This document shows, piece by piece, positions 16,060-36,633 of a DNA stretch of 49,006 nt (positions within the stretch are counted from its first letter, which is position 1; every line of letters starts with the position of its first letter). The position numbers and the translations under genes were made by a program. The stretch is taken from the NCBI GenBank assembly GCA_021793515.1, contig JAJYSP010000023.1, positions 1-49,006 of the forward strand. Reading direction: 5' to 3'. The stretch comes from Actinomycetes bacterium. Lineage in GTDB: Bacteria > Actinomycetota > Acidimicrobiia > Acidimicrobiales > RAAP-2. The notes below the pieces were generated by a model that saw only the letters and a list, made by a program, of their open reading frames with translations, made no database searches and was not told where the DNA came from.

Positions 16060-16098
16060 CGGTTTGCCAGTGGGGTGCGTCCACGGTCACAATGGGTC

Positions 16099-18186: not shown

Positions 18187-19474
18187 GTGGCGATGGTGGA
18201 GTACCAGCGCCGCGTCGTGGACGCCGAACTGGACAACCTCGTCAGTGGCGGGATTGCCGCTATCGCACTCGAGGGGGCCAAGGCAGTTGGCAAGAGCTTT
18301 ACCGCCACCCAACGAGTTGCCAAAACCTTCCTCCTCGAGCAACCCGTCGCGCGGCAGTTGCTCGAGGCTGATCCCAACCAACTGCGGACGGGCGATGCGG
18401 TCCTCGTCGACGAGTGGCAGCACGTTCCGGCAACCTGGGGGGTCATACGAGGAGCTGTCAACGCCGGCGCTAATCCGGGACAGTTCTTCCTTACCGGATC
18501 GGCGTCTACCCATCACCGGGACACCCACAGTGGTGCGGGACGAATCGTGAGTGTACGCCTTCGACCGATGACCCTCGCCGAACGCGGCGTTGGCAGTCCG
18601 ACCGTTTCACTCGGCCAACTTCTCACCGGCGAGCGGCCCGCGATCACTGGTTCATCAGCTGTGCGACTGAGCGACTACGTCGATGAGATCGCGCGGTCGG
18701 GGTTTCCCGACGTACGCCGCTTGGGGAGTCACGCGCGTCAGGCCTTGCTCAGTGGCTATGTCAATCGCGTCGTCGACTACGACATCACGCATCTCACCGG
18801 ACGACGCCTGAGAACCGCGGTCGCCCTTCGGCGTTGGATGGCGGCGTACGCGGCCGCAACGGCCACGGTCGCCTCGTACGAAACGATTCGAGACGCGGCG
18901 ACTGGCGGACACATGGAAAGGCCAAACCGAGCGACCACGATCCCGTATCGTGATGCACTCGAAGCGCTCTACATCCTGGACCCGATACCGGCGTGGGTAC
19001 CTACACGCAACCACATCGCAGAGCTCGCTTCGACACCGAAGCACCATCTCGTCGATCCTGCGCTTGCAGTCTCACTACTGGGGCTTGAGCCGGCCGCCCT
19101 CCTCGCTGGTGAGGAGGGCGGGATCGAGGTCATTCGTGATGGGACGTTGCTCGGCAACCTCTTCGAATCGCTCGTGACCCTTGGCGTGCGAGTCTTCGCA
19201 CAAGCCAACCAAGCGAGCGAGCGTTGGCCACCTCCGAGTCCATCGAGGAGAACACGAAGTCGACCTCATCGTCGAGCGTCGCGATCGCCGGGTTGTGGCG
19301 TTCGAGGTCAAACTATCGGGCGAGGTTTCGCCAGAAGACGTCAAGCATCTGCACTGGCTGAAAGGGAAGCTTGGCGATCAGGTCCTGGATGCGGCGGTGA
19401 TCACGACCGGACCGAATGCGTATCGGCGTTCCGACGGCATCGCCGTCATTCCCGCCGCACTCCTCGGTCCGTAA
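18187..19474 (+). pseudogene. AAA_14/DUF4143-type ATPase, frameshifted near its C-terminus
   Basis: The reading frame from 18187 encodes an ATPase of the AAA_14/DUF4143 type: Walker A GAKAVGKS near residue 35, Walker B AVLVDEWQ near 78, then a FFLTGSAS sensor-like motif and the SGYVNRVVDYDI segment. After VFAQANQAS the frame runs into Arg/Pro-rich nonsense to 19584. The true C-terminus (HEVDLIVERRDRRVVAFEVKLS..., a nuclease-like fold) continues in another frame to a stop at 19474. The switch lies at three GCGA units at 19213-19223; removing one 4-bp unit restores an unbroken protein of about 428 residues. It may be a true pseudogene, a phase-variable gene or an assembly error. Starts at 18187, 18193 or 18196 are all possible. 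The restored end overlaps the convergent GntR gene by 29 bp. Function of this ATPase group is unknown. Confidence 0.82.
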
Positions 19475-20204
19475 CAGCAGCGCCATCGTTGGCGGCTGGC
19501 CCATGTTCGTTGCTGGATTCGAGGTGTAGGGCAACGACGTTCTCTGAATTGAAGAGCAGTGCTTGGCGCGCCGATGCGACGTGATGTTTCATGGCAGCTC
19601 TCGCGGCGTCCGCGTTTCGAGTCAACAGCGCATAGAGGATCGCCCGGTGTTCGTTGAGGGAACTCTTGCGCGGATGCGCCGTCGTGAGGTCGCGGTACTG
19701 ACGCATGACGAGTGGGTAGTGCAGGGAGTCGACGAAGCTCGACATCGTGGCCTGGCGGGCCGCGTCTCGAATGGTCTGGTGGAATCGCCGGTTGAGACCC
19801 GAGTACTCCGCCTCGATGTGCTGGCGGTCCGCTACCGCCATCTTCTCGAGGATGACCGTGAGTTTTTCGAGTTCCTCGTCCGTCGCGCACTCGGCGGCCT
19901 TTGCCGCCAAGGCGGGTTCGAGTACCTCGCGGGCTTCGAGGATCTCGGCCGCTTCGTCGATGGTGAAGGAACGGGTCCGCACGCCGCGGTTGGGCTCGCT
20001 CGTGAGGTAGCCCTCTTGGGCGAGGCGCGCGGTGACCGATCGAACAGTACCCCGCGAGACGTCGAGTAACTTCGTCAGCTCCGCTTCCGTGAGCCGGACG
20101 TTCGAGCGTAATTCGCCAGAGACGATGAGGTCACGGAGATCTTGGTACGCCTGCAAGAATCGCGAAGACGAGACATCGACGACCACCGAAGTTTTCTCGC
20201 TCAT
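19446..20204 (-). CDS. GntR-family transcriptional regulator (FadR/FCD type)
   Basis: A 252-residue regulator. Residues ~15-80 form the GntR winged helix (LTEAELTKLLDVSRGTVRSV, with the wing at EGYLTSEPNRGV). Residues ~90-225 are the all-helical FCD ligand domain with conserved His residues (FHQTIRDAA; EHRAILYALL; MKHHVASARQAL) that often bind a metal and an organic acid. It is the last gene of a minus-strand operon behind a decarboxylase paralogue and an amidohydrolase, with gaps of 23 and 34 nt, so it should be expressed together with them. It is the obvious candidate for the palindromes at 22097, 22194, 27391 and 27455. ATG 20204 has an AGGAAAG ribosome binding site. About 30 C-terminal residues are poorly conserved looking. 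Confidence 0.88.
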   Translation of the reverse strand: MSEKTSVVVDVSSSRFLQAYQDLRDLIVSGELRSNVRLTEAELTKLLDVSRGTVRSVTARLAQEGYLTSEPNRGVRTRSFTIDEAAEILEAREVLEPALAAKAAECATDEELEKLTVILEKMAVADRQHIEAEYSGLNRRFHQTIRDAARQATMSSFVDSLHYPLVMRQYRDLTTAHPRKSSLNEHRAILYALLTRNADAARAAMKHHVASARQALLFNSENVVALHLESSNEHGPAANDGAAVTDRGVRRE

Positions 20205-20238
20205 GATTCTTTCCTGTCGTGCTGTTTAGAACCCCGCG

Positions 20239-21093
20239 TTACCCATTGCTGAGCGCGGAGTATAGGCGACGTGCGGTGTTTCCCATAATGTCGTCACGCG
20301 CGTCGCGTGTCAATGCGCCGAGCACGCGCTCGGCGAGTGCGTAGAGCTCAGCGAGTGGTTGCTCGGCGGCGGGACAGTTCGATCCCCAGGCGATGCGCTC
20401 CGACCCGAACGCAGCGACCAGCGGGTCGAGGAACTCGGTGGCCGAGCTGCCCACCTCGTCGAGCCCCTCCAGTGTTCGGTGGGTCAGTTTGAGGTGCAGG
20501 CCCGGGTACCTCGAGAACGCCGCGAGTCCCTCGGCGGCACCGCTCAACGAAGCGCGCACATCGGGGTAGCCGCAGTGGTCGAGCAACACGACCGCGTCGG
20601 GGAACCGGTTGAGCAGATCAGCGAGTACCGGTGCGGTGTCGTCGCCGAGCTTCAGCTGCAGGCAGACGGGGATCCGGGTGCGACTGGCGGCCGCCCAGAA
20701 GTCATCGGTCGCGGCGTCGGCGAACCACATGCCCTGTTCGGATACCGTGCTCCCGGTGGTGAAGAGCCGCACGCCGGACAGCCCGGCGTCGGCGACCACC
20801 TCGAGGTGGCGTCCGGCATCGTCCCTGAGCGGGTCGAACGTGCCGACGGCGATGAAGCGGTCTGGGTGGCGCATAGCGGAGTCGATAACGTAGCTGTTGT
20901 CGTAACCGTAGGCGGTTGTCGCCTGGACGAGCACGGCCTGGGCGATCCCGACGCTGTTCATCCGCTCGAGTAGCTCGTCCGCGCTCACCGGGCGCTCATT
21001 CGCCCAGACGGACTGCTTCCCGCCGAGAGGTGCACGTGGGTAGGCGCCGGTGTCGCGCGCCAGGACGTGGCAGTGGCTGTCGACGATGTTCAT
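20239..21093 (-). CDS. amidohydrolase-family metal-dependent hydrolase (paralogue of 28439-29341)
   Basis: A 284-residue TIM-barrel hydrolase of the amidohydrolase-2 type (COG3618), a group that opens lactones or hydrates and decarboxylates ring-cleavage products. The N-terminal D-S-H-C-H metal motif, VVLLDHCGYPD in the middle and ERIAWGSNCPAAE near the end fit metal and acid/base residues. It shares the opening pattern (H-T/C-H, a PLGG segment, and AVLVQA(T/S)T.YG(Y/F)DN) with the amidohydrolase at 28439-29341. ATG 21093 is chosen because AGGAGA lies 6 nt upstream; an upstream in-frame ATG at 21120 lacks one and lies inside the previous gene's end. It lies 23 nt after the decarboxylase-like gene in the same operon. 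Substrate unknown; a lactone or 2-pyrone intermediate is a guess. Confidence 0.84.
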   Translation of the reverse strand: MNIVDSHCHVLARDTGAYPRAPLGGKQSVWANERPVSADELLERMNSVGIAQAVLVQATTAYGYDNSYVIDSAMRHPDRFIAVGTFDPLRDDAGRHLEVVADAGLSGVRLFTTGSTVSEQGMWFADAATDDFWAAASRTRIPVCLQLKLGDDTAPVLADLLNRFPDAVVLLDHCGYPDVRASLSGAAEGLAAFSRYPGLHLKLTHRTLEGLDEVGSSATEFLDPLVAAFGSERIAWGSNCPAAEQPLAELYALAERVLGALTRDARDDIMGNTARRLYSALSNG

Positions 21094-21116
21094 GGTGGTT
21101 CTCCTATCTTTCCAGT

Positions 21117-22079
21117 TCAACAGTCGGCGTAGGTGCCGTCGGCGAATAGCGCGTCACCGTATCGCCCGTCGATGAGCCCCTGGTCCTTGCTGAAGCGCTG
21201 CAGGGCGTCGATGCTCGCACGGTTGCTCGCTACCCCGTAGGGGATGGGGTCCGACCCGATCTTTCGCCGTTGAACACGAAGGCGCGCGAGACGGTCCCAG
21301 TCGGGGTCCTCGTGCACGTGAATCCGTTTGCTCGTCGCGAAGGCGTCGTACAGCGTCGTCGCCAGGGCGGGGTCCTCGGTGATGAGTTCGTTGCGCACGA
21401 CGATCACCGAGTGCAGGGGGTAGATCCCCGTGCGAAGGTACCAGTCACGTTCGATGACCTCGCTGTCGGGGAAGAGCGGGTACGTCTCGCCGGGCGGCGT
21501 TGCGGGTGCCTCCCACCCGTCGGTCGGCTTACCCGCACGGCCCGTGCCGGCGTTACCCGTGAAGGCGGCGGCGATCTCTCCGGCCTCGAGCAGCGTCCCG
21601 AGCGAGCGACCATCGGTCACGCGCTCGACATTCGGGGGAACGTGTCCTTCGACGTGATCGTCGTCGTCGACAACCCACGTGATCGTGCTGAGATCGACGC
21701 CGTAGTCCTCGCCGAGGACGCCGCGTCCCCACACACCGGTGCTCACCGAGTACGCGCGTACGCCAACGCGTAGGCCCTCGAGGTCGGTCGGTACCGCTAC
21801 GCCCGAACCTGGTGCGCACTGGATGTCGCTGTGATGGAACCGACGGTTGAGGAACACGGGGATCGCGGTGATGGGAACGCCAGCTTCTCTCGCCATAAGG
21901 TACGACACGGGTGCGAGTTCACAGACGTCGAACTCGAGGTCACGAATCATCCGCCGGTAGCCGGCGATGATCGGTCGGACCTCGATCGGTTCGACCGAGT
22001 AGCCCGGTACTGGGACCCGGCCGTCGAGGAGGGCCGCCACGTGGGGGTAGTCGCCGAGCGCAACGGTCAGCCGGGCCAT
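21117..22079 (-). CDS. 4,5-dihydroxyphthalate decarboxylase-like protein (paralogue 1)
   Basis: A 320-residue protein related to 4,5-dihydroxyphthalate decarboxylase, which converts 4,5-dihydroxyphthalate to protocatechuate and has a periplasmic-binding-protein type 2 fold without a signal peptide. It opens LTVALGDYPHVAALLDG and contains RFHHSDI near residue 90, the family-like motif GVRAYSVSTGVWGRG near 115, and LHSVIVVRNEL near 225. It has no export signal, so it is cytoplasmic. ATG 22079 has GGAGG just upstream; an in-frame upstream start lies in the operator region and is unlikely. It is the first gene of the minus-strand arm of the regulon. Two paralogues lie at 26479 and 27490. Actual substrate may differ from phthalate. 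Confidence 0.83.
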   Translation of the reverse strand: MARLTVALGDYPHVAALLDGRVPVPGYSVEPIEVRPIIAGYRRMIRDLEFDVCELAPVSYLMAREAGVPITAIPVFLNRRFHHSDIQCAPGSGVAVPTDLEGLRVGVRAYSVSTGVWGRGVLGEDYGVDLSTITWVVDDDDHVEGHVPPNVERVTDGRSLGTLLEAGEIAAAFTGNAGTGRAGKPTDGWEAPATPPGETYPLFPDSEVIERDWYLRTGIYPLHSVIVVRNELITEDPALATTLYDAFATSKRIHVHEDPDWDRLARLRVQRRKIGSDPIPYGVASNRASIDALQRFSKDQGLIDGRYGDALFADGTYADC

Positions 22080-22096
22080 AGGTTCCTCCGAACATG

Positions 22097-22109
22097 ATTG
22101 TTGAACAAT
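22097..22109. promoter_or_regulatory. GntR/FadR-type operator candidate 1
   Basis: ATTGTTGAACAAT is an inverted repeat (ATTGTT / AACAAT around one G). It lies 17 bp before the start of decarboxylase paralogue 1, where a repressor would block the minus-strand promoter or its leader. Confidence 0.6.
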
Positions 22110-22159
22110 AATATCAATATAGCACGAACTACCTGAACACGGTGTCCTAAATACAGGGC

Positions 22160-22188
22160 TTGCGTTAGACAACTTCCAGGTGTACGAT
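22160..22188 (+). promoter_or_regulatory. promoter of the plus-strand catabolic operon
   Basis: TTGCGT at 22160-22165 and TACGAT at 22183-22188 are spaced 17 bp apart. Predicted transcription starts near 22195, inside operator candidate 2. Confidence 0.6.
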
Positions 22189-22193
22189 CAGAA

Positions 22194-22204
22194 TTGTCTG
22201 ACAA
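22194..22204. promoter_or_regulatory. GntR/FadR-type operator candidate 2
   Basis: TTGTCTGACAA is a near-perfect palindrome (TTGTC-T-GACAA) covering the predicted transcription start of the plus-strand operon, an ideal place for repression. Confidence 0.65.
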
Positions 22205-22297
22205 CTTAAATACCTGCTGTACCGCCAGTGCTGGTGGCCACGCTCAGGGAGCGGGCGCCACGGCCAGTCAAAGTCATTGATCGAATCGGAGTTCGTA

Positions 22298-22771
22298 GTG
22301 ATCAACATCGCAGAGCGTATCCTCGTCCCGCATCCTCCGTCGGTCGTCTGGAGCGTGCTATCGGATCCCGAGCGGGTCATCGCCTGCATCGAGGGTTCTC
22401 GCATCGGCGATCGTCACGAGGACGGCAGTTTCGACACCGATCTGACCGTACGATTCGCCGGTATCAAGGTCACCTTCAAGGCAATCTTCACTCTCGCACT
22501 CGACGAAGCGGCCTTGACGGGACGGATCGACGGCCGGGGTGGCGATGGTCGTGGATCGACGCGCGTCCAGGGCGCCGCCGACTTCACCATCGTCCCCGAC
22601 GCCGGCGGCTCGGTCGTGACGCTCAACGGGAGCGGGGAAGTGAAGGGGACGCTCGCCGGTCTCGTGACCACCGGCGCGTCGCACGTCGTCGATCGCATGG
22701 CCAAATCGTTCACCACGCGGCTGATCGCGGCGTGCGCCGAGTTCGATCCTGCCCAAAAGAGAGGCGAGTGA
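22298..22771 (+). CDS. CoxG-like SRPBCC protein
   Basis: A 157-residue protein of the CoxG branch of the SRPBCC fold (carbon monoxide dehydrogenase subunit G family). It shows the N-terminal ERILVPHPPSVVWSVLSDPERV..CIEG pattern, FAGIKVTFKA, GSGEVKGTLAGL and a C-terminal helix with VDRMAKSFTTRL. CoxG itself helps recruit CO dehydrogenase to the membrane, but many relatives occur in catabolic clusters without any CO dehydrogenase, as here, and their role is unknown; a ligand-binding or membrane-tethering helper is possible. GTG 22298 is chosen because CGGAG lies 7 nt upstream and family homology starts there. It is the first gene of the plus-strand operon and its stop overlaps the aldolase start by one base (TGATG). 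Confidence 0.78.
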   Translation: MINIAERILVPHPPSVVWSVLSDPERVIACIEGSRIGDRHEDGSFDTDLTVRFAGIKVTFKAIFTLALDEAALTGRIDGRGGDGRGSTRVQGAADFTIVPDAGGSVVTLNGSGEVKGTLAGLVTTGASHVVDRMAKSFTTRLIAACAEFDPAQKRGE

Positions 22772-23622
22772 TGAGGCTTAACGGGATCATCGACCGGTTC
22801 GTGCGCGGTGAACGCGTCTTTGCGACCTTCGCGTCACCCGATCGGGCAGCGGCGATCGCGTTGCACGGCACGGGCTACGACGCGCTCGTCTTCGAGGCGG
22901 AGCACAAGCCGTGGGACGTCCCCGAGCTGCGAGACGCGATGCAATACCTACTCGATCGACGCCAGGTCTTCGAGTCCGAGACCTTGACGCCAACGATCAC
23001 GCCACTGGTGCGCATCCCGCCCAACGGCGGCGAGCGAGCGCAATGGCACGCCAAGCAGGTGCTTGACCTCGGGGCCTACGGTGTCGTATGGCCGCATATC
23101 GACACCGTCGAGGATGCACGCAACGCCGTGGCGGCGTGTCGATACCCGGGAATTGACCAAGACGGAGACCGTGAGCCGCTCGGACTGCGCGGCGACAGCC
23201 CCGCGTGGGCGGCACGGTATTGGGGCGTGGACGTCGGCGAGTACTACAAGTGCGCGGACGTGTGGCCACTGGCGCCGGACGGGGAATTGCTCGTCGGGCT
23301 CATGATCGAAAGCGTCCGTGCGATCGAGAATCTCGACGCCATACTCGAGCAGGTTCCCGGCGTCGGCCTCGTGCTCGTCGGTGAGGGTGACCTCAGCCAA
23401 GAACTCGGCCTCCCGCGTCAATTCGAGCACCCCACCGTCCAGGCGTACCGCGACCGCATCGTCGAGATCTGTCGCGCTCGAGGCGTCGCGGTGGGGCATC
23501 CCCACGTGACCGAGAAGAACGCGGACGAGGTTCTCGAGCGCGGTTACCAATTCCTCATGACGGCCCCAGTGACTACCTACCCGGGTCTGGTGCGCGGTCG
23601 GGACGCGGTCCGCCGTGTCTGA
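22771..23622 (+). CDS. HpcH/HpaI-family aldolase
   Basis: A 283-residue class II aldolase-type TIM barrel of the HpcH/HpaI/citrate lyase beta family, which splits 4-hydroxy-2-oxo acids into pyruvate and an aldehyde or oxo acid. Visible family parts are DALVFEAEHKPWD near residue 35 (active-site His region), LDLGAYGVVWPHIDTVEDA near 95, MIESVRAIENLDAIL near 180 (metal ligand Glu) and GEGDLSQELG near 205 (metal ligand Asp). Translation is coupled to the CoxG-like gene (TGATG). The next gene encodes a LigJ-like hydratase, whose product in the protocatechuate 4,5-cleavage route is just the kind of hydroxy-oxo acid an aldolase would split. In known pathways that step uses a different aldolase (LigK), so this would be a replacement. 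Confidence 0.86.
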   Translation: MRLNGIIDRFVRGERVFATFASPDRAAAIALHGTGYDALVFEAEHKPWDVPELRDAMQYLLDRRQVFESETLTPTITPLVRIPPNGGERAQWHAKQVLDLGAYGVVWPHIDTVEDARNAVAACRYPGIDQDGDREPLGLRGDSPAWAARYWGVDVGEYYKCADVWPLAPDGELLVGLMIESVRAIENLDAILEQVPGVGLVLVGEGDLSQELGLPRQFEHPTVQAYRDRIVEICRARGVAVGHPHVTEKNADEVLERGYQFLMTAPVTTYPGLVRGRDAVRRV

Positions 23623-23662
23623 GGCGTTCAGCGAACCGATTACGGGGAATTCGGAGGACCTG

Positions 23663-24739
23663 ATGTACATCGATGCGCACGCGCATTTCACGACCGTGCC
23701 GAGTGCGCTCAAGGATTGGCGCGACCGGCAGATCGAAGCGATCGAGCAGCACGGCCGGCACCTGTCGCCCGACGGCCTCGAGATCGCCGATGACGAGATC
23801 GCCGAGGCCCTGGTCCAGGGCCAGCTGGCCGTGCAGGACCGGCACGGAATCGACGTGACGTTGCTCTCGCCGATCGCCGGCAAGATGGCGCACCACTACG
23901 GCGACCAGGAGACGAGTCTGACGTGGAGTCGACTCAGCAACGACACGGTGCACCGCGCGTCCGTGCTCTTCCCGGATCGCTTCGTCAACGTCTGCCAGCT
24001 ACCCCAGTCACCGAACGGGGACATCCGGTTCTCGGTGGAGGAGTTGCGGCGTTGCGTCGAGGAGCTCGGCTTCGTCGGGTGCAACCTCAACCCCGACCAC
24101 TCGGACGGGTACTGGCAGGCACTGCCCATCACAGACCGCTCCTACTACCCGCTCTACGAGGCGATGGTGGAGCTCGGCGTGCCCGCGATGGTGCACACGT
24201 CGATGTCGGCGAATCCCGCGGTCCACGGCACGTGCGCGCACTACCTCAACGGTGACACGACGGCGTTCATGCAGCTGTGTCAGTCCGACCTGTTCAAGGA
24301 CTTTCCAGACCTGAAGATCATCCTGCCTCACGGCGGCGGGGCCGTCCCGTACCACTGGGGCCGCTATCGGGGTGTCATGCACGACCAAGGGCGCGGCGAG
24401 CTGGTCGACATCATTGGTCACAACGTGTACTTCGACACCTGCGTCTACCACGCTCGGGGACTCCAGTTGCTGGTCGACGTCGTCCCGATAGACAACATCC
24501 TCTTCGCATCAGAGATTATCGGTGCCGTACGCGGGGTCGACCCCGACACCGGCCACCGGTTCGACGACACCCGGTTCCTGCTCGAGTCGCTCGAGTCGCT
24601 CGGAACGTCTGACCTTCAGGCGATCGCCTCAGCGAACGCGCTCGAGGTATTCCCGCGCCTGCGCAAGTGGCTCGAGGAACGCGAACGCTTCACCGCCGCG
24701 ACCGGAACTCCGGTTGTAACCACCACGAACCCACTGTGA
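23663..24739 (+). CDS. LigJ-like 4-oxalomesaconate hydratase / amidohydrolase
   Basis: A 358-residue amidohydrolase-superfamily protein closely resembling 4-oxalomesaconate hydratase (LigJ) of the protocatechuate 4,5-cleavage pathway. Matches include MYIDAHAHFTTVPSALKDWR at the start, FVGCNLNPDHSDGYWQ, PAMVHTSMSANP, HYLNGDTTAFMQL, ILPHGGGAVPYHWGR and NILFASEIIGAVRGVDP near the C-terminus. The HxH and later His/Asp residues bind zinc in that family. Length is normal (about 340). ATG 23663 is chosen because CGGAGG lies 8 nt upstream and the family starts there; the frame stays open upstream to 23615 but that part overlaps the aldolase. It sits between the aldolase and the ThDP enzyme. A related substrate is possible. 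Confidence 0.87.
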   Translation: MYIDAHAHFTTVPSALKDWRDRQIEAIEQHGRHLSPDGLEIADDEIAEALVQGQLAVQDRHGIDVTLLSPIAGKMAHHYGDQETSLTWSRLSNDTVHRASVLFPDRFVNVCQLPQSPNGDIRFSVEELRRCVEELGFVGCNLNPDHSDGYWQALPITDRSYYPLYEAMVELGVPAMVHTSMSANPAVHGTCAHYLNGDTTAFMQLCQSDLFKDFPDLKIILPHGGGAVPYHWGRYRGVMHDQGRGELVDIIGHNVYFDTCVYHARGLQLLVDVVPIDNILFASEIIGAVRGVDPDTGHRFDDTRFLLESLESLGTSDLQAIASANALEVFPRLRKWLEERERFTAATGTPVVTTTNPL

Positions 24740-24751
24740 CGAGGACGACCA

Positions 24752-26407: not shown

Positions 26408-26478
26408 GCCACTAACAGCCCGATCATCGAAACCGTCGGACGCCCCAGATCCCAGTCGCAAACAGAAAGGCTTTTCAG

Positions 26479-27381
26479 ATGTCGATCACCGAAATCCAGT
26501 ATTTGATCAACGACACTCAACTGGCCGGCGCCGCGCAGAGCGCACTTGAGGCGCAGCCGGCCATCACGTCGGTCACCGCATCCGTAATCCGACCCGTGCA
26601 CAACGGCTTCAAGGCCTTCGCGCGCGGGGACGGCTTTGACGTGAGCGAAGTGGCTATCGTGACGATCCTCCAGGCCATCGCGCACGATCGACCCGTACTG
26701 TTCCTGCCACTGACGGCACTCGGGCGCTACCAGCACCAGACGCTGATCAGCACCGAACAACGCCAGGTCGCGGACCTGCCCGGGCGTACCGTGGGTGTGC
26801 GTTCGTGGAGCCAGACCACCGGGATGTGGGTGCGAGGCATCCTCATGCACCAGTACGACGTCGACTTGCACTCAGTGCAGTGGCGCACCTATGAGGGCGG
26901 ACACCTCGACGAGCAAGCGGACCCGACGTGGGTCGAGCACGCGGAAGAGGGCGCCAGCCTGGCGAAAGATCTGCTGAGTGGTCGCGTGGACTACGCGATC
27001 ATGGGTAACGATCGCCCCGACGCGCCGAACGTGCGCGACGTCATCCCCGAGGCGAAGAAGGTCGCGGCGGCGTGGGCGGAACAGGTCGGGTTCATCCCTG
27101 TCAATCACGTGTTCGGTGTTCGTGAGGCGGTCGCACGAGAGTTGGGTGACGCGATCTGTGGGGTGTACGACGCGATCGCGGGTAGCCTGCGCGCGCGTCA
27201 GGCCGACACGAGTGGTCCCGTCACGGAACCGTTCGGTTTTGCGGCCCTGCGTCCCGCGGTGTCTGCGGCGGCGCAGTACGCGTGGGAACAGGAACTGCTT
27301 CCGCGTCGCGTCACCTACGACGAACTAGTCGAGCGCACCACATCGGCGCTGGGCGTCACGGCGACCCGCCTGGGTGCCTGA
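26479..27381 (+). CDS. 4,5-dihydroxyphthalate decarboxylase-like protein (paralogue 2, divergent)
   Basis: A 300-residue member of the same PBP2-fold decarboxylase-like family as 21117 and 27490. The shared motif appears as GVRSWSQTTGMWVRG near residue 110, followed by VDLHSVQWRTYEGGH and FIPVNHVFGVREAVAREL. It is the most divergent of the three: the FHH pair of the others is replaced by YQHQ near residue 90, and the N-terminus (SITEIQYLINDTQLAGAAQ) is unlike theirs. There is no signal peptide. ATG 26479 has AGAAAGG upstream and lies 71 nt after the ThDP gene. It might have a different substrate, or act as a partner or sensor rather than an enzyme. Confidence 0.72.
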   Translation: MSITEIQYLINDTQLAGAAQSALEAQPAITSVTASVIRPVHNGFKAFARGDGFDVSEVAIVTILQAIAHDRPVLFLPLTALGRYQHQTLISTEQRQVADLPGRTVGVRSWSQTTGMWVRGILMHQYDVDLHSVQWRTYEGGHLDEQADPTWVEHAEEGASLAKDLLSGRVDYAIMGNDRPDAPNVRDVIPEAKKVAAAWAEQVGFIPVNHVFGVREAVARELGDAICGVYDAIAGSLRARQADTSGPVTEPFGFAALRPAVSAAAQYAWEQELLPRRVTYDELVERTTSALGVTATRLGA

Positions 27382-27390
27382 AGAGTCAGG

Positions 27391-27403
27391 ATTGTTTGAC
27401 ATT
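27391..27403. promoter_or_regulatory. GntR/FadR-type operator candidate 3
   Basis: ATTGTTTGACATT resembles candidate 1 (arms ATTGT / ACATT, one mismatch to a perfect palindrome). It overlaps a TTGACA hexamer at 27396-27401 in the AT-rich promoter region of the gene at 27490. Confidence 0.45.
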
Positions 27404-27454
27404 CTTCTCACATATACTTGTATTATCCGTAGTTTCATGTAGAATTACCCAGAA

Positions 27455-27465
27455 TTGTAAAACAA
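27455..27465. promoter_or_regulatory. GntR/FadR-type operator candidate 4
   Basis: TTGTAAAACAA is TTGT-N3-ACAA, the same layout as candidate 2. It lies 25 bp before the start codon at 27490. Confidence 0.55.
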
Positions 27466-27489
27466 AGTCGTATTTTAGATCGGAGTTGC

Positions 27490-28386
27490 ATGACTGGTCC
27501 ATGGACCATCGCATTGCGCGATTATGCCCACACCATTCCACTCAAGGATGGCACGGTCGTGCCAGAGGGCGTGGAGCTCAACTTTGTGGACGTCGAGCCG
27601 ATCCATCGGGCGTTCGCACCGATGGTGCGCGATAGCGCCTACGACATTTCCGAGCTCGCGATCGCCACGCTGTTCCAAGCGGTCGATGCGCAACGGCCGA
27701 TCGTCGCGCTTCCAGTCGTGCTCCACGGTAACTTTCATCACCGCTCGATATCCGTGCTCGACGGGCAAACCCGCGTACGTCCCGAGGACCTCGCCGGGCG
27801 CCGCGTCGGGGTGCGTGCCTATAGCCAGACGACGGGACTCTGGGTGCGTGGGATTCTCAGTGACGGTTATGGCGTCCGGGCTCAGGATGTGACCTGGGTG
27901 ACCACGGAAGGCCCGCACGTGACCTCGGCGGTCGAGCCCGACAACGTCGAGCGGACCGACGCCAAGCTCGTCGATCTCCTCACCGCCGAGGAACTCGCGG
28001 CGGTCGTGATAGGGGCGCGCTCCGCCGACCACGTCGAGAATCTCACCCCACTGCTTTCGGACTGGAAGGAACGTCAAGAGCAGTATTACGCCGAGCACGG
28101 CTGGGTGCCAATCAACCACGTGGCAGTCGTGCGACGTGAACTGGTCGAGTCGAACCCCGATGGTGTTCGGGCCGTGTACCTTGCACTGCAGCGAGGCATC
28201 GACCTGGCGTGTCCCGAGACGCCGACGGATTCGACGCGAGAGCTCGTTGTGCGATACGGCGTCACCGAGACACTCCTGTCGACGTTCGAAACCGCGCTTC
28301 GTTACGCTCGCGAGCAGAACGTGATCCACACGACCATCACCGCAGCGGAGATCTTCGCACCGTTTGGCGAGTTCGTGGGGGAATAG
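27490..28386 (+). CDS. 4,5-dihydroxyphthalate decarboxylase-like protein (paralogue 3)
   Basis: A 298-residue protein of the dihydroxyphthalate decarboxylase-like PBP2 family. It contains VVLHGNFHHRSISV near residue 80, GVRAYSQTTGLWVRG near 115 and WVPINHVAVVRREL near 210, and is close to paralogue 1 in these motifs. It has no signal peptide and should be cytoplasmic. ATG 27490 has CGGAG just upstream. Unlike the preceding genes it is separated by a 108-bp AT-rich gap carrying two GntR-type palindromes, so it starts a second transcription unit that runs into the amidohydrolase and the ABC importer. Its substrate may be the compound brought in by that importer, but this is inference. Confidence 0.82.
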   Translation: MTGPWTIALRDYAHTIPLKDGTVVPEGVELNFVDVEPIHRAFAPMVRDSAYDISELAIATLFQAVDAQRPIVALPVVLHGNFHHRSISVLDGQTRVRPEDLAGRRVGVRAYSQTTGLWVRGILSDGYGVRAQDVTWVTTEGPHVTSAVEPDNVERTDAKLVDLLTAEELAAVVIGARSADHVENLTPLLSDWKERQEQYYAEHGWVPINHVAVVRRELVESNPDGVRAVYLALQRGIDLACPETPTDSTRELVVRYGVTETLLSTFETALRYAREQNVIHTTITAAEIFAPFGEFVGE

Positions 28387-28438
28387 CGGTCGGTGATCGG
28401 ACCGCCCGTACGTTCCATCACCATCCAGAGGGGGACTA

Positions 28439-29341
28439 ATGCAGTATTTCGATACTCACACACACGCGGTGTCGGCGGACACGACCACGTATCCGCCGAA
28501 GCCGCTCGGCGGTACTCGATCGGAGTGGTCTCAGACCCGCGCGGTTGACGTCGATGGCCTGATCCGAAGCCTCGATGACGCGCAGGTCGAACGAGCGGTG
28601 CTCGTGCAGGCCTCCACGGTCTACGGCTTCGATAACCGCTACGCCGCGGCAGTGCTGGCGCAGCACCCCGACCGGTTCGTCGGGGTCGGCTCGGTTGACT
28701 TCCTAGCCCCGTCGGCCGTGGACGACCTCCGTCGACTCATCGAGCAAGCCGGATTCAGCGGCGTCAGGATCCGAGTCTCCGACGGCAGCACCAAGGTGCC
28801 GACACCAGGGTCGGGCCTGACCGACGAGCGGATGCGCGACGTTTGGGACTACGTCACTGATAACAACGTCCCCGTGTGCATCCAAATGCACTCGAAGGAC
28901 GCGCCGAAACTCGCTGAGATCCTTACCGCGCACCCAACGATGACGGTACTGCTCGACCACCTCGGTCGGCCCGATGCCTCCGGCGGAGCGCCCTACCAAA
29001 ACCTCGTCGAGCTCGGGCAGTTGGCTCAGTTCGCGGGTGTCCATCTGAAGATCACACCGCCCGCGATCAAGCGCCTGTCCGAACAGCCGGACGCGGACGT
29101 CACCAAAGTCCTCGCCGGCTTGATCGAGATCTTCGGCGCAGAGCGTTTTACGTGGGGGTCCAACTTCCCGGCCTCCGCGGGCTCACTGTCGGCGCTGCTC
29201 GCGTCCATCGAAGGGTATCTGCCCGCACTCGATCCGGAGAGCCTCGCAGCGATCCTTGGTGGCAACGCGACTCGGATCTACACGCGCAACCGCGTGGCAA
29301 CACCCCTGCCCTACACCAACCCGGGTGCAGGCTTAAGGTAA
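28439..29341 (+). CDS. amidohydrolase-family metal-dependent hydrolase (paralogue of 20239-21093)
   Basis: A 300-residue amidohydrolase-2 family TIM barrel. The metal motif is FDTHTHA at the N-terminus; MTVLLDHLGRPDA near residue 180 and ERFTWGSNFPASAG near 240 are the later active-site segments. It shares AVLVQAST.YGFDN and a PKPLGGTRSEW segment with the protein at 20239, so the two arose by duplication and lie one in each arm of the regulon. Related enzymes hydrolyse lactones or 2-pyrones in aromatic catabolism. ATG 28439 has GAGGGGG upstream. It lies 10 nt before the binding-protein gene, in the same operon. Confidence 0.84.
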   Translation: MQYFDTHTHAVSADTTTYPPKPLGGTRSEWSQTRAVDVDGLIRSLDDAQVERAVLVQASTVYGFDNRYAAAVLAQHPDRFVGVGSVDFLAPSAVDDLRRLIEQAGFSGVRIRVSDGSTKVPTPGSGLTDERMRDVWDYVTDNNVPVCIQMHSKDAPKLAEILTAHPTMTVLLDHLGRPDASGGAPYQNLVELGQLAQFAGVHLKITPPAIKRLSEQPDADVTKVLAGLIEIFGAERFTWGSNFPASAGSLSALLASIEGYLPALDPESLAAILGGNATRIYTRNRVATPLPYTNPGAGLR

Positions 29342-29351
29342 AGGAGAAATC

Positions 29352-30449
29352 ATGAAACATCGAATCAGAGGTGCCCTGACGACGAGGTCACGCGGTCCTG
29401 TGACGTCCGTCGCAGTGCTCGCGGTCGTGGCGCTCACCCTGACCACTGGCGGTACGGCGTATTCGGCGAGCAAGCTGCCCACCACGATGAAGGCGCTGGT
29501 CAAGCAAGCCAAGAAGGAAGGCCAGGTCAACTGGTCGGCCCCGAAGCTCCAAAAGCAGATGCAGGGCGCGATCGATCTCTTCGAGAAGAAGTACCCGGGC
29601 ATCACGGTGAATTACAGCGACACCAATGCCCCTACCCAGGTCAACCAGCTCCAGATCGAGGAGGCCGCCAATAAAGTCTCCGTCGACGTCGCGGCCGCGG
29701 GCGGGCTGACCGTCATACCGTCTCTCAAGATGGCCAATTACGTTAAATGGACGAATTACGGCGTCAAGCAAATTGACTCAGTCTTTGGCAACAAGATGAT
29801 CTACATCTGGGCGTCACCCAAGGTCTGGGTCTACAACACCAAGTTGCTCCAAGCGGCGAACGTACCCAAGACGTGGAATGACATCCTGCACCTCAGTGTG
29901 CCGGGCAGCCAAATTGCAATCGAGTCGCGCGCGTCGTTCATGTCCGTTTGGGCCGACGACCCGACGATGGGCAAGACCAATGGCTTGGCGTGGGCGCAGC
30001 AACTCACGACTCTCAGGCCTCACTGGACGTCGAACACTACGCAGTCCGAGGCACTCGTTGCATCCGGTCAGGCCGCCTTCGGCACGAGCCTCATGAACCT
30101 CGTCCTCAAGGACGAGAAGGCTGGGGCTCCCGTGGCCATCGCGCCCATTCCGAACACGAGTACGAATGAGACCTTTATCTACGTGCCCAAGGGCGCCCCG
30201 CATCTTGCCGCAGCGGTGTTATTGTCATCGTTCCTCTCCTCGCCCGCGGCGCAGGCCGCGCTCGAACTGGATTACAATTCGCGCATTCCACGCAGTACGA
30301 ACTGTTCGAATCCCGGCACTAATTTGGTCCTCAAAACGCTCTGCGGCGCTGGGATCAAGTGGTACTCGACGCCGACGCTCGCGGCGTACAAATCCCTCAA
30401 CAATTACTTCCCGAAGGCTCAAATAGCCATGGGAACGTTCATCGGTTAG
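29352..30449 (+). CDS. ABC importer extracellular solute-binding protein
   Basis: A 365-residue exported binding protein of the iron(III)/spermidine/thiamine-type cluster. Residues 1-39 form a Sec signal peptide (KHRIRGALTTRSRG, hydrophobic VAVLAVVALTLTTGG, cleavage near AYSA). There is no lipobox Cys, which is unusual in a Gram-positive-type cell unless the protein is held in another way. Typical parts are LVKQAKKEGQVNWSAP, FEKKYPGITVNYSD, WVYNTKLL..VPKTWNDIL and FLSSPAAQAAL. ATG 29352 is preceded by AAAGGAG. The permease and ATPase follow directly, so this is a full importer. Family members bind metal complexes, polyamines, thiamine or organic anions; here the catabolic context favours an organic acid. 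Confidence 0.86.
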   Translation: MKHRIRGALTTRSRGPVTSVAVLAVVALTLTTGGTAYSASKLPTTMKALVKQAKKEGQVNWSAPKLQKQMQGAIDLFEKKYPGITVNYSDTNAPTQVNQLQIEEAANKVSVDVAAAGGLTVIPSLKMANYVKWTNYGVKQIDSVFGNKMIYIWASPKVWVYNTKLLQAANVPKTWNDILHLSVPGSQIAIESRASFMSVWADDPTMGKTNGLAWAQQLTTLRPHWTSNTTQSEALVASGQAAFGTSLMNLVLKDEKAGAPVAIAPIPNTSTNETFIYVPKGAPHLAAAVLLSSFLSSPAAQAALELDYNSRIPRSTNCSNPGTNLVLKTLCGAGIKWYSTPTLAAYKSLNNYFPKAQIAMGTFIG

Positions 30450-30458
30450 GCAGTCCAC

Positions 30459-32252
30459 ATGTCGATGAAGGATGCGGTCCCGGGGTTGACCGCGGAGGAG
30501 GGGGCTGTTCGACGCGCCCCCTCCTCCGGCCCCGGCCGCAAAGCAAGCGCGCCAAGAGGGATGCGGTCATGGCCACATACCTTGTTCAATGTGGTGCTGG
30601 CCATAATCGTGGCCTACCTCGTCCTTGTCCCACTCGTGATCTTGCTGTTCAGCAGCTTCAAGAACTCCGGGACGAGTCTGCCGTTCCAGGTGCCGGGCTT
30701 TTCCATTGCGAACTACTCATCGATATTTACGTCGTCTCGGCTCGCGTCGGTGTCGTTCAACACCTTCGTCTACGTCGTTGGCGCGTTACTCGTTTCACTC
30801 GTCTGCAGTGTGGGCCTCGCCTACCTCTTCGAGCGGACCGACATCCCGGGTCGCAGGGTGTTGGAGCCGCTGGCGTTAGCGCCGATGGCAGTCCCAGTGA
30901 CGGTCATGGCCATCGCGTGGGCACTCGTGGCGAACCCGGCAAACGGACCAATTGCGATTCTCGTGAGGCAGTTCTTCGGCGTAAATATCGACATCTACAC
31001 CATGCCCGGGATGATTCTCGTCATGGGCCTCTTCGGTGTCCCGAGCATGTACCTGATGATCGCGCCGGCGCTGGCGTCGATTGGCCCGGAGTTTGAGGAG
31101 GCCGCAGCAACGCTCGGCGCTCCGCTCCGCCGCCGGCTCCGCCTCATCGTGTTGCCGCTAATCGGACCGGCGGTGTCGGCGGCGTCGCTTCTCCTCGTCG
31201 TGATAATCCTCGAGGGCTTCGCGATCCCTGCGATCCTCGGTCTGCCCAAGCAGATCTTCGTATTCAGCAGCCTTATCCAGTACTACTTACAAAATCCAAC
31301 CGGCGTCGCGAACTACGGGCAGGCCAGTACCTATGGCATCCTCATCCTCATCATCACTATGGCGCTGACCATCGTTTACCGGCGTCGGACGCGCCACGCC
31401 GAACGGTACCGTGTCGTCACCGGCAAAGGGTACCGTCGTTCGCGGACGTCGCTCGGTCGCTGGCGTGCCCCGATCGCGATCGTCGTGTGGCTGTACATGA
31501 TCTTCAGTGTGCTCCTGCCGATCTTTGCGCTGATCTGGACCAGCCTCTCGCCGTACAACCGTCCGATCACGTGGAGTGGTCTGGGGACCATGACGGTCAA
31601 TAACTACACCGATATCTTCACGGCGCCGGGTATGAGTCAGATCCTCAGCAACACCGCTCAAGTCGTGCTGGTGACCGCAACGGTGACCACTGCACTGTCG
31701 CTCTGGATCGCGCTGTCGGCGTCGCGGCGGAGCTTTCGCGGCAGTGGACTGTTGATGGAATCTACGTCGCTCGTCCTCGGCATTCCGAGCGTGGTGCTCG
31801 GCGCGGCCGTGCTGTTTCTGTACCTATTCCTCCCCCTACCGATATTTGACACTCCCTGGATCATCATCGTCGCCCTCGTCACGAGGTTCCTCCCGCGAGG
31901 ATCAAGGCTTCTTCAGGCCGCATTGCTCCAGTTGGACGATGGCTTAATGGAAGCAGCGCAGGTGACGGGCGCGTCACCGTTCACCGTGACACGAACGGTC
32001 CTGTTGCCACTACTGCGACCGGCAATGCTGAAGACCTGGTTGTGGATCTTCGCGCATGCGCTCGGCGAACTCCCCATCGCGCTGCTGTTGACGAGCGCGC
32101 ACAACAATACGCTCGTGGTGCAGTTGTGGAACCTCTTCACCACGAGCGCCGACTACCCCCACGCGTGTGCGCTCGCAGTATTTATCCTGACAATTTCAAC
32201 CGTCGCCGTCCTCGTAGTGAATCGGCGCGAAACCAATGGGGGTGTGGCGTGA
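30459..32252 (+). CDS. ABC importer permease, fused double-domain (FbpB/ThiP type)
   Basis: A 597-residue integral membrane protein with about twelve transmembrane helices in two homologous halves, as in iron(III) and thiamine importers where one chain forms the whole channel. Each half has an EAA coupling loop: EEAAATLGAPLRRRLRLIVL near residue 213 and MEAAQVTGASPFTVTRTVLL near 497. These contact the ATPase. The N-terminal 45 residues are a soluble Pro/Arg-rich tail. ATG 30459 lies 9 nt after the binding-protein stop with no strong ribosome binding site; ATG 30465 is an alternative. The stop overlaps the ATPase start (GTGA). Confidence 0.88.
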   Translation: MSMKDAVPGLTAEEGAVRRAPSSGPGRKASAPRGMRSWPHTLFNVVLAIIVAYLVLVPLVILLFSSFKNSGTSLPFQVPGFSIANYSSIFTSSRLASVSFNTFVYVVGALLVSLVCSVGLAYLFERTDIPGRRVLEPLALAPMAVPVTVMAIAWALVANPANGPIAILVRQFFGVNIDIYTMPGMILVMGLFGVPSMYLMIAPALASIGPEFEEAAATLGAPLRRRLRLIVLPLIGPAVSAASLLLVVIILEGFAIPAILGLPKQIFVFSSLIQYYLQNPTGVANYGQASTYGILILIITMALTIVYRRRTRHAERYRVVTGKGYRRSRTSLGRWRAPIAIVVWLYMIFSVLLPIFALIWTSLSPYNRPITWSGLGTMTVNNYTDIFTAPGMSQILSNTAQVVLVTATVTTALSLWIALSASRRSFRGSGLLMESTSLVLGIPSVVLGAAVLFLYLFLPLPIFDTPWIIIVALVTRFLPRGSRLLQAALLQLDDGLMEAAQVTGASPFTVTRTVLLPLLRPAMLKTWLWIFAHALGELPIALLLTSAHNNTLVVQLWNLFTTSADYPHACALAVFILTISTVAVLVVNRRETNGGVA

Positions 32253-33394
32253 GCGATATCGCAGTCACCGTGACCGATGAAAACTCAATTACCGTGCAAC
32301 AGCTCCGGAAGCGATACGGCGGCGCGCAGGCAACCGAACCCTCGTACGCCGTCGATGGCGTATCGTTCGAGGTCCCCAAGGGCCAGTTCATCACGTTGGT
32401 CGGACCGAGCGGATGCGGCAAGACGACGACGTTGCGCTGCATCGCTGGACTCGAGCAACCCACTGAGGGCCGCATCACGATCGCGGGTCGCGTGGTCTTC
32501 GACGGCGCAGGACGCCGGACCGTGCGGACCGAGGATCGGCCGATCGCGATGGTCCCCCAGTCCTACGGCATCTGGCCGCACATGACCGTGCTCGAGAATG
32601 TGGCGTTCCCGCTCCGTCACGGTCGGAACCGTAAGGGCCAGCATGACATTCGCGAACGGGCGCTCGCGATGCTCGACCAGGTCGGGCTCGCCGCCTACGC
32701 CGAACGCTGGGCGACGCAGCTGAGCGGCGGCCAGCAGCAGCGGCTATCGCTCGCCCGGGCGCTCATCGCCGAGCCGGAGGTACTCTTGCTCGATGAGCCG
32801 TTGTCGAACCTCGACGCGAAACTTCGAACGAGACTTCGCATCGAGCTCCGGGAGTTTCAAGAACGGTTCGGAGTCACGACGGTCTACGTGACGCACGATC
32901 AGTCCGAGGCGTTGGCGTTGTCCGACACGGTCGTGCTCATGAACGAGGGACACGTCGAGCAGGTCGACCGGCCGAATCGGATCTACGAACAGCCCCAGTC
33001 GTCCTTCGCCGCCGACTTCATCGGCGGCGCGAACCTCATCCCGGTTCGCTCGGTCACGATGCGATCCGACGGCCTGTTGGCCGAGACCGATGCGGGCACA
33101 TTGCTCTGTGCGAGTGAGAACCAGGCCGGCCCGACCTCGGGCGGCTTCGTATGCGTGCGTCCCGAGAACGTGGAGGTCAGCGCTCGCACGTCGAGCGCGG
33201 GTACTGCCGACGGACTCAACGAGATCACCGGGAAAGTAACGGCGTCCGAATATCTCGGTGATCGACTGGAATTCATCCTTGATGTTCAAGGCGTGAGGTT
33301 GAAGGCGCAGACCCCGGCCAGTATGGGTGTGCGGCCGGGCGATGAGGTGACGGTTCGAATTGAACCGAGTCGGGCGCGGTATCTCGCGTCGTGA
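32249..33394 (+). CDS. ABC importer ATP-binding protein
   Basis: A 381-residue ABC ATPase that powers the importer encoded just upstream. It has Walker A GPSGCGKT near residue 52, the Q-loop at VPQSYGIWPHMT, the signature LSGGQQQR near 155, Walker B EVLLLDEPLSNLD near 175 and the switch His in VYVTHDQSEALAL. The C-terminal ~130 residues form a TOBE-type regulatory domain (FVCVRPENVEV; VTASEYLGDRLEFILDV). GTG 32249 overlaps the permease stop by 4 bp, so translation is coupled. An earlier in-frame start at 32042 lies deep inside the permease gene and is rejected. It is the last gene of the catabolic regulon. Confidence 0.92.
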   Translation: MSDIAVTVTDENSITVQQLRKRYGGAQATEPSYAVDGVSFEVPKGQFITLVGPSGCGKTTTLRCIAGLEQPTEGRITIAGRVVFDGAGRRTVRTEDRPIAMVPQSYGIWPHMTVLENVAFPLRHGRNRKGQHDIRERALAMLDQVGLAAYAERWATQLSGGQQQRLSLARALIAEPEVLLLDEPLSNLDAKLRTRLRIELREFQERFGVTTVYVTHDQSEALALSDTVVLMNEGHVEQVDRPNRIYEQPQSSFAADFIGGANLIPVRSVTMRSDGLLAETDAGTLLCASENQAGPTSGGFVCVRPENVEVSARTSSAGTADGLNEITGKVTASEYLGDRLEFILDVQGVRLKAQTPASMGVRPGDEVTVRIEPSRARYLAS

Positions 33395-36211: not shown

Positions 36212-36351
36212 TGTTGGCGCAGTTTACTGCGCGTGCCGTGATTGGCCGATACCGGACCTCCGTTGCGATGTCGCACGTCAACCGTGAAATCGAAACCGCG
36301 GGTGGCGGTCGCGACCAGTTAGTGTCAACGTTCGGCGACAAGGTGGTCCCG

Positions 36352-36633
36352 ATGCGAATCAATGCCATGGGCGACGTCGCGGCGGCCGTGCGAGGTCGCC
36401 GCGAAGAGCTCGGGCTCAGCCAAGGGGACCTGGCGCGACGCGTGGGTGTCTCGCGAGCGTGGATCAACGCGGTCGAGGCCGCGAAACCTCGCGTCGGGTT
36501 CGACCTGGTGCTGCGACTCTTCGACGAGCTCGGCCTGCACGTCGAGCTCGTGAGACCGGGCAACCTCGGTGACGTTTTCAAGGACAGGCCCGTCGACCTC
36601 GACACCATCCTCGACGAGTACCGCGACCGGTGA
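36352..36633 (+). CDS. hipB: HipB-like XRE-family antitoxin
   Basis: A 93-residue protein with one XRE-type helix-turn-helix (GRREELGLSQGDLARRVGVS, then RAWINAVEAAKPRVGFDLVLRL), the form found in HipB antitoxins. HipB binds HipA, neutralises it and represses the operon. ATG 36352 has GGTGG a few bases upstream and TAGTGT (36320-36325) as a likely -10 box. The frame stays open to 36193, but that would overlap the valS start and is rejected. The stop overlaps the hipA start by 4 bp (GTGA), the normal arrangement. Length fits HipB (about 70-100). Confidence 0.86.
   Translation: MRINAMGDVAAAVRGRREELGLSQGDLARRVGVSRAWINAVEAAKPRVGFDLVLRLFDELGLHVELVRPGNLGDVFKDRPVDLDTILDEYRDR

Follow-up and report, generated by a model that had tools for sequence, protein, structure and literature searches.

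A candidate catabolic island with three Pht5-superfamily paralogues, its own importer and a FadR-type regulator in an Acidimicrobiales genome

What compound is taken up and degraded by a gene block which combines three decarboxylase-like paralogues with a hydratase, an aldolase and an importer, and in which no ring-opening enzyme is found? This question is raised by positions 19446-33394 of a 49,006-nucleotide stretch (called the window here) of contig JAJYSP010000023.1, GenBank assembly GCA_021793515.1, from an Actinomycetes bacterium of the order Acidimicrobiales. The reading that we favour, and consider rather probable, is that the block was acquired horizontally as a catabolic island under a FadR-type regulator of its own, and would serve to import and degrade a polycarboxylate that either has no aromatic ring when it enters the cell or is opened by an enzyme that was not found here; within the same joint reading and with the same confidence, a ring-opened acid, a lactone or a pyrone are the candidate substrate classes. 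The genes of the block are conserved as a unit, an operator-like palindrome recurs among them and the block is inserted between an esterase gene and valS.

All thirteen genes of the block (about 14 kb) are intact and have uninterrupted frames, and every gene named in an original prediction, made from the letters of the window alone, was found at its place. They form two arms, with GntR, AmA and Dec1 on the minus strand and the ten genes from CoxG through the ATPase on the plus strand. Four starts were corrected, those of HpcH (22771), Dec1 (22079, minus), AmA (21093, minus) and the ATPase (32249). The genes are as follows; ThDP stands for thiamine diphosphate, and the actinobacterial loci are those of the next section.

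19446-20204, minus: GntR, regulator of the FadR subfamily (Pfam GntR 49.8 and FCD 90.9 bits; relative in 26 of 26 actinobacterial loci)
20239-21093, minus: AmA, Amidohydro_2 protein, candidate lactonase (Pfam Amidohydro_2 109.8 bits)
21117-22079, minus: Dec1, decarboxylase-like, Pht5 superfamily by sequence (Dec1 profile against 9jp7 190.6 bits; own supported set in the tree)
22277-22771, plus: CoxG-like SRPBCC protein (COXG 44.1 bits; 25 of 26 actinobacterial loci)
22771-23622, plus: HpcH, HpcH/HpaI-family aldolase (HpcH_HpaI 92.8 bits)
23615-24739, plus: LigJ-like 4-oxalomesaconate hydratase (Amidohydro_2; 377 to 397 bits against four solved hydratases)
24752-26407, plus: ThDP-dependent enzyme, like acetolactate synthase or sulfoacetaldehyde acetyltransferase (Pfam TPP_enzyme N, M and C)
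26479-27381, plus: Dec2, decarboxylase-like, Pht5 superfamily by homology to Dec1 and Dec3
27490-28386, plus: Dec3, decarboxylase-like, Pht5 superfamily by sequence (9jp7 at E 2e-22; NMT1 by Pfam)
28439-29341, plus: AmB, second Amidohydro_2 protein of the AmA kind (Amidohydro_2 123.8 bits; 2ffi at E 4e-10)
29352-30449, plus: extracytoplasmic solute-binding protein (SBP_bac_1 65.5 bits)
30459-32252, plus: fused double ABC permease, read so because BPD_transp_1 matches two stretches (PotC/PhnU2-like below cut-off)
32249-33394, plus: ABC importer ATPase with TOBE domain (ABC_tran 126.7, TOBE_2 45.4 bits)

In the proposed route, the ABC importer would take up a polycarboxylated acid, AmA and AmB would hydrolyse a lactone or pyrone ring, Dec1-Dec3 would strip carboxylates, or tautomerise, at different stages, LigJ would hydrate the resulting 2-oxo-alkene of the 4-oxalomesaconate type, HpcH would cleave the hydroxy-oxo acid to pyruvate and a second 2-oxo acid, and the ThDP enzyme would decarboxylate or ligate that second acid. 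The proposed targets of GntR are TTGTYNRACAA sites, in the divergent promoter and ahead of Dec3, from which the substrate or an intermediate would release it.

Conservation of the block and its insertion in the host lineage

Species genomes were scanned with an alignment of three aldolases, which gave 296 relatives, and the best 80 loci were kept; HpcH was the bait and some of the loci end at contig ends, so that counts of absence are upper bounds. LigJ was found around the HpcH orthologues in 60 of the 80 loci and a Dec gene in 52. Twenty-six loci are actinobacterial (Streptomyces, Nocardia, Nonomuraea, Amycolatopsis, Actinophytocola, Actinomadura, Rhodococcus, plus one actinobacterium), and in these HpcH, LigJ, the ThDP enzyme, AmA and GntR are present in 26 of 26 and CoxG, Dec1, Dec2 and Dec3 in 25 each; 24 of them have the complete eight-gene core. 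Nine of these loci contain twelve of the window's genes, and eight of the nine have the ATPase too while the ninth ends early. The order CoxG-HpcH-LigJ-ThDP-(Dec3)-Dec2-Dec1-AmA-GntR is kept in 22 of the 26, from which the window differs in that its Dec1-AmA-GntR part is inverted. Identity to the window is 60-65% for HpcH, 61-67% for LigJ, 59-64% for the ThDP enzyme, 62-67% for Dec1, 56-60% for AmA (one 45%), 47-54% for Dec2, 44-49% for CoxG and 43-70% for Dec3. A DUF3500 gene, absent from the window, lies between Dec3 and Dec2 in 18 of the 26 loci (14601-15776 of locus L031, for example).

For a control, 14 regions (232 kb) centred on other genes of the HpcH family were searched, and at a limit of 60 bits the remaining 12 cluster genes were found in none of them; the regions were hand-picked, 12 from the host's order and 2 from the host, with taxa unmatched to the 80 loci, several are shorter than 20 kb, and the central aldolase itself falls below 60 bits in two of them. 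The co-occurrence of Dec and LigJ with HpcH is therefore beyond chance, and LigJ or Dec is nearby also in 41 of the other 54 loci.

The search of 72,556 plasmid records gave HpcH orthologues (at least 51% identity) in 11 records, with a twelfth match at 40%. Dec1 relatives are present in 95 records, and among the best 40 of these 95, eleven have at least 41% identity over at least 94% of the query and the next best has 35%. The same eleven accessions make up both sets of orthologues, and the two genes are separated by less than 5 kb in ten and by 22 kb in one; four of the eleven records are from Paraburkholderia, so the independent events are fewer than the records. Five of the twelve records with the aldolase are predicted to be mobilizable or conjugative.

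Proteobacteria have five families in common with the actinobacterial block, namely Dec1, Dec2, LigJ, an amidohydrolase and HpcH, in most cases accompanied by a ThDP enzyme from a different family. The arrangement Dec1-LigJ-amidohydrolase-HpcH-ThDP-Dec2 is found in Diaphorobacter, Paraburkholderia and Acidovorax, and Paracoccus has the same parts in another order. In the plasmid clusters (Diaphorobacter HDW4B, Acidovorax DW039, Paraburkholderia largidicola, Paracoccus) Dec1, LigJ and HpcH are orthologous to those of the window and Dec2 and the amidohydrolase are related, whereas transport genes are of tripartite tricarboxylate, major facilitator superfamily or peptide-type ABC kind, some clusters have a LigB-type dioxygenase, and the ThDP enzyme, where scanned, belongs to NCBIfam NF005760 (734 and 730 bits in L006 and L122, cut-off 363). 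ThDP enzymes of L006, L091, L093 and L124 are only 22-24% identical to that of the window in long alignments. Regulators in L006, L122 and L123 are of LysR type, unlike the GntR of the window, and CoxG is absent from all 60 non-actinobacterial loci (the 54 and six hand-picked plasmid loci). Among ten proteobacterial loci with all five families, six of which are the hand-picked plasmid loci, a ThDP gene of either kind is present in eight. Of the 54 scan loci outside the actinobacteria, 3 have both Dec2 and ThDP, 3 Dec2 only, 1 ThDP only and 47 neither (Fisher 0.003), an association of few and partly related loci.

The host genome is of 2.38 Mb with an estimated completeness of 97.65%. Its 99 nearest relatives that were searched, of which 60 belong to the same genus, gave no orthologue of the aldolase, and 19 of the 99 have paralogous aldolase stretches of 29-46% identity. 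In six of six relatives inspected, picked from 33 with a valS match among 40 searched, valS is directly beside the counterpart of the esterase gene located at 16075-17709 in the window; thus about 16 kb, the island together with an AAA/DUF4143 gene at 18187-19584, was inserted here. Guanine-plus-cytosine content at third codon positions is 0.75-0.86 in the island against 0.87-0.93 in five flanking genes. Comparison of the island borders by shared 10-base words gave no direct repeat and one 10-base inverted match. The block has apparently been acquired horizontally by this bacterium.

The original prediction had proposed to look for co-occurrence of the families in other genomes, and the gene set does stay together in the 26 actinobacterial loci, with a related core in Proteobacteria. 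The refuting condition that it set for related genomes gave a split answer, since the genes keep together in distant bacteria and the block is absent from close relatives; the idea that this absence would end the pathway proposal was dropped, as the insertion explains it.

Enzymes of the candidate pathway and ring cleavage

Dec1 and Dec2 have no family match in Pfam or NCBIfam at E 0.001, and Dec3, the sole Dec protein recognised by Pfam (NMT1), has no match in NCBIfam either. The solved structure 9jp7, a 4,5-dihydroxyphthalate decarboxylase, is matched by Dec3 at E 2e-22, and the Dec1 profile spans almost all of it; the identity of Dec1 and Dec2 is assigned by their homology to Dec3 and to this structure. 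By this homology Dec1-Dec3 are members of the Pht5 superfamily, the fold of which we take to be PBP2, and identities are 35% for Dec1/Dec3, 31% for Dec2/Dec3 and 28% for Dec1/Dec2. In a tree of 132 proteins, made by a quick method with 49 of 129 inner branches well supported and several long branches flagged, including the window Dec2, the three paralogues are separate. The Dec1 proteins of Actinomycetota and Pseudomonadota form one well-supported set of 38; the window Dec2 forms a supported clade with 25 actinobacterial copies inside a weakly supported wider Dec2 group; and the window Dec3 falls in a clade with those Streptomyces Dec3 which adjoin AmB and the importer. The four Pht5 proteins taken from canonical pht operons (L126-L129) make up a separate clade with full support, and Dec1-Dec3 of the window are placed outside it.

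Among 130 aligned proteins of the Dec family E54, R119, W135 and P148 are invariant and H83 is present in 124, and E54, H83, W117, R119, W135 and P148 are common to the Dec proteins and Pht5, with which the mechanism may be shared. R108, T114 and H142 are present in 121 to 123 of the 130 and in all three window paralogues, and are replaced in all four Pht5, which have P or A, A and T at these positions; for this reason the substrate of Dec1-Dec3 is probably other than 4,5-dihydroxyphthalate, and the extra arginine would suit an extra carboxylate. The description of the three genes as dihydroxyphthalate-decarboxylase paralogues, with which the analysis began, can thus be kept at the level of the superfamily and is not supported for Pht5 itself. 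In this family, labels like 'substrate-binding protein' or 'dihydroxyphthalate decarboxylase' can mask several distinct enzymes.

The Amidohydro_2 domain occurs in three proteins of the cluster (AmA, the LigJ-like protein and AmB, by Pfam). The LigJ-like protein gave 377 to 397 bits against the four solved 4-oxalomesaconate hydratases, the next family scoring 164, and retains the HxH, HGGG and SE motifs, by which it classes as a predicted 4-oxalomesaconate hydratase. AmA and AmB are 38% identical to each other; AmA has weak matches, far under cut-off, to fuconolactonase and 4-sulfomuconolactone hydrolase in NCBIfam, and the sole match of AmB in the PDB at 0.001 is 2ffi (E 4e-10), a putative 2-pyrone-4,6-dicarboxylic acid hydrolase.

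In an alignment with the solved aldolase YfaU, HpcH retains the EHxP, R, E and GxxDLS residues. It had been suggested that this aldolase stands in for LigK, and in agreement with this a Phyllobacterium cluster with Dec and a 51%-identical LigJ has nearby, in place of HpcH, a gene of the RraA family, which is in the superfamily of LigK.

The best NCBIfam scores of the ThDP enzyme are 225.6 bits for acetolactate synthase (cut-off 538.35) and 211.6 bits for sulfoacetaldehyde acetyltransferase (Xsc; cut-off 676.4), so it is below the equivalog cut-off for both; E48 and GDAS...ND are invariant among 11 aligned sequences. A ThDP step had been called foreign to the known pathway, and such an enzyme is indeed not known to have a place in protocatechuate/gallate 4,5-cleavage. 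In the canonical protocatechuate route the second product of the aldolase is oxaloacetate, which would need no ThDP enzyme; therefore the natural substrate is probably a compound other than 4-carboxy-4-hydroxy-2-oxoadipate, or else the ThDP enzyme acts at an upstream step. Relatives of the window ThDP enzyme with 35% identity were also seen on two Rhodobacterales plasmids (L008, L009), where they adjoin a gene annotated '4-oxalomesaconate tautomerase', a tripartite tricarboxylate transporter and tcuAB; this context is a hint that the family is active in tricarboxylate metabolism.

The alternative that survives best, though we consider it unlikely, is an ordinary aromatic pathway, in which a hydroxylated aromatic polycarboxylate of the phthalate or gallate kind would be decarboxylated by Dec1-Dec3, its ring opened by a dioxygenase encoded elsewhere, and the product passed to the 4,5-cleavage lower pathway with HpcH for LigK. 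The strong match of LigJ to 4-oxalomesaconate hydratases and the residues E54, H83 and R119 common to the Dec proteins and Pht5 agree with it. LigI, LigJ and LigK constitute the lower pathway of protocatechuate/gallate 4,5-cleavage, which like the window has a LigJ-type hydratase and a terminal pyruvate aldolase, and LigI could be replaced by the Amidohydro_2 proteins. The window cluster differs from it in having no dioxygenase or LigC-like gene, an HpcH/HpaI aldolase and no RraA-type LigK (in the cluster; RraA was not sought in the rest of the genome), three added Pht5-superfamily enzymes, the ThDP enzyme, an ABC importer of its own, and GSN in place of GSD in the two amidohydrolases. The phthalate pht operon (Pht3-Pht4-Pht5 and a reductase) has in Pht5, the 4,5-dihydroxyphthalate decarboxylase, a superfamily relative of Dec1-Dec3, whereas the window cluster has no Rieske oxygenase, reductase or Gfo/Idh dehydrogenase.

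Arguments for and against this alternative come from the distribution of ring-cleavage enzymes, and the ThDP enzyme is a further point against it. The original prediction had noted that no dioxygenase is present; indeed Pfam gave no ring dioxygenase among the 13 genes, and of the types tested in the genome only a 4,5-DOPA dioxygenase was found. This one LigB-family protein is encoded on another contig (321 bits, cut-off 233). Intradiol (PF00775) and Rieske (PF00848) enzymes are lacking from the host genome, as are relatives of the cluster-type LigB; a query for VOC-type dioxygenases gave no match in a search without a positive control. LigB-type dioxygenases are encoded in none of the 26 actinobacterial loci and in 8 of the 60 non-actinobacterial ones, near the core in L006, L124, L071, L091, L092 and L098, with HpcH and LigJ in L079 and with HpcH in L055, and one proteobacterial locus (L005) has a VOC-type protein. 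When 21 of the 26 actinobacterial carrier genomes were searched whole, a full-length relative of the cluster-type LigB was found in two only, outside the 20-kb locus, but other LigB-family genes in all 21, so that an unlinked dioxygenase may be present there.

Regulation, import and the weight of the evidence

The GntR protein has the FCD domain, and operator-like sites lie in the candidate target promoters, as expected by sequence for a regulon of the FadR subfamily. The palindrome TTGTNNNACAA occurs three times in the window against 0.10 expected from shuffles, each time in a promoter gap of the cluster.

22098-22108: operator-like palindrome TTGTTGAACAA, divergent promoter gap
22194-22204: operator-like palindrome TTGTCTGACAA, divergent promoter gap
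27455-27465: operator-like palindrome TTGTAAAACAA, 24 bases before the Dec3 start, departing from the TTGTYNRACAA core

The palindrome fits the published operator of FadR-type GntR regulators, for which TNGTNNNACNA is given as a consensus (PMC2230225). The 26 actinobacterial loci (516 kb) contain 70 matches to the palindrome and the other 54 loci (840 kb) contain 7, while rotated or re-gapped control patterns occur 0 to 2 times in the same 26; these loci are related, so the site counts are non-independent events. The core of the sites in the 26 loci is TTGTYNRACAA, two of the 70 sites lie within recognised genes, which cover 58% of the bases, and 18 of 34 neighbouring pairs less than 300 bases apart have a spacing of 106-109 bases. 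The cluster is thus probably co-regulated as a unit, and the proposal of one catabolic regulon gains from the recurrence of gene set and order and from the position of palindromes between the arms and before the Dec3-importer segment. Further regulon members elsewhere in the genome were considered and rejected; of the ten other sites one has the YNR core, and it lies within a 589-codon frame which is transposase-like by eye.

The full importer set lies beside the enzymes, as had been proposed, and is kept in 10 of the 26 actinobacterial loci; another ABC ATPase is beside the cluster in 17. The nearest solved relatives of the binding protein are Fe3+ binders, matched weakly (42 bits at best). 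Paired adjacent tyrosines are a feature of FbpA-type iron sites, and no such pair is present in any of 13 aligned sequences (the window protein and 12 relatives), which speaks against iron, named earlier as an example of an unrelated substrate that would undo the pathway idea. The predicted structure of the binding protein (13 sequences) had a mean pLDDT (predicted local distance difference test) of 53.8 and was not used for a fold search.

It is very improbable, in our estimate, that the block consists of two unrelated abutting units, one an operon of enzymes and the other an independent importer of iron or some other nutrient; the limited retention of the importer arm and the Fe3+-binding relatives would suit such an arrangement, but the importer travels with Dec3 and AmB, which are paralogues of genes in the enzyme arm, a palindrome of the same kind precedes Dec3, and the tyrosine pair is missing. 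Degradation of an organosulfonate or organophosphonate, with an Xsc-like role for the ThDP enzyme and an importer working in the manner of 2-aminoethylphosphonate systems, is least probable of all, since the high-ranking NCBIfam matches that suggest it (GntR to PhnR, the ATPase to PhnT2 at 314.1 against 457.7 bits, the binding protein to PhnS2 at 19.7 against 392.75, AmB to 4-sulfomuconolactone hydrolase, and the ThDP enzyme to Xsc, ranking after acetolactate synthase) are all under their curated cut-offs, in most cases by a wide margin, the 13 genes include no phosphonatase, phosphotransacetylase or sulfite exporter, and LigJ and HpcH are not known to have a role in such a pathway.

Several observations weigh against the imported-polycarboxylate island as we propose it. 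Every enzymatic step is read from family membership, and Dec1-Dec3 might be isomerases or lyases. AmA and AmB carry GSN, with asparagine, where 2ffi has GSD, with aspartate, which makes their hydrolase chemistry uncertain. HpcH stands with neither LigJ nor Dec in the available DNA of 13 of the 54 non-actinobacterial scan loci, two of the ten proteobacterial five-family clusters (L005, L082) have no ThDP gene, and the importer is confined to the ten actinobacterial loci mentioned above. The difference in third-position base composition is modest. As to regulation, binding of the palindromes by this GntR is deduced from its family, the site at 27455 (TTGTAAAACAA) is without the YNR core, the looser published consensus shows no clear enrichment in the window (12 against 7.7), and the strict pattern has 13 sites genome-wide, 3 of them in the cluster, against 15 for the reversed control.

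In its wider form the proposal is more tentative, and we put it slightly below an even chance: the clusters may represent a widespread, undescribed pathway by which soil actinomycetes and Proteobacteria degrade a natural polycarboxylate or pyrone, with distinct Pht5-superfamily decarboxylases at successive steps and the final 2-oxo acid given to a ThDP enzyme, for which different families would have been recruited on at least two occasions. In the lineage of the window the pathway would have arrived as a self-contained island that brought its FadR-type regulator and operators with it. The seven named actinobacterial genera keep the same gene set and operator-like sites, and the related proteobacterial core occurs also on plasmids. 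The parts that are swapped among clusters (two ThDP families, an HpcH or RraA aldolase, several transporters, an optional dioxygenase) show which steps are seemingly indispensable, and they make the substrate question directly testable. Literature searches on this combination of families and on the Pht5 structure, mostly without subscription journals, found no description of the cluster; if the proposal is true, a natural substrate is degraded by a route absent from the literature searched. The single paper found with the names of both LigJ and Pht5, a Curvibacter genome announcement, does no more than list such genes for the degradation of phthalate esters, with an ordinary CHA aldolase (PMC4714105).

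Neighbouring genes of the window

The AAA_14/DUF4143 gene at 18187-19584, which is inserted beside the island, has a 156-bit match to the candidate defence model PDC-S01, and its frame continues beyond this match into the GntR region. On the other side, in the region 33644-43913, valS and cysS are adjacent in six of six relatives, with an acyl-CoA dehydrogenase gene close after them in five, the sixth ending before it. The window has further insertions in this region, a HipB/HipA-like pair (36193-37901) and, at 39817-43913, an SCO1167-family SNF2 helicase and a gene without family match, because of which the valS-cysS region looks like an insertion hotspot. Upstream, the segment 5439-14231 encodes a pair of very large proteins that resemble surface proteins and contain TIG and fibronectin III domains; counterparts 34-45% identical to the TIG protein are present at a similar place in four of the six relatives.

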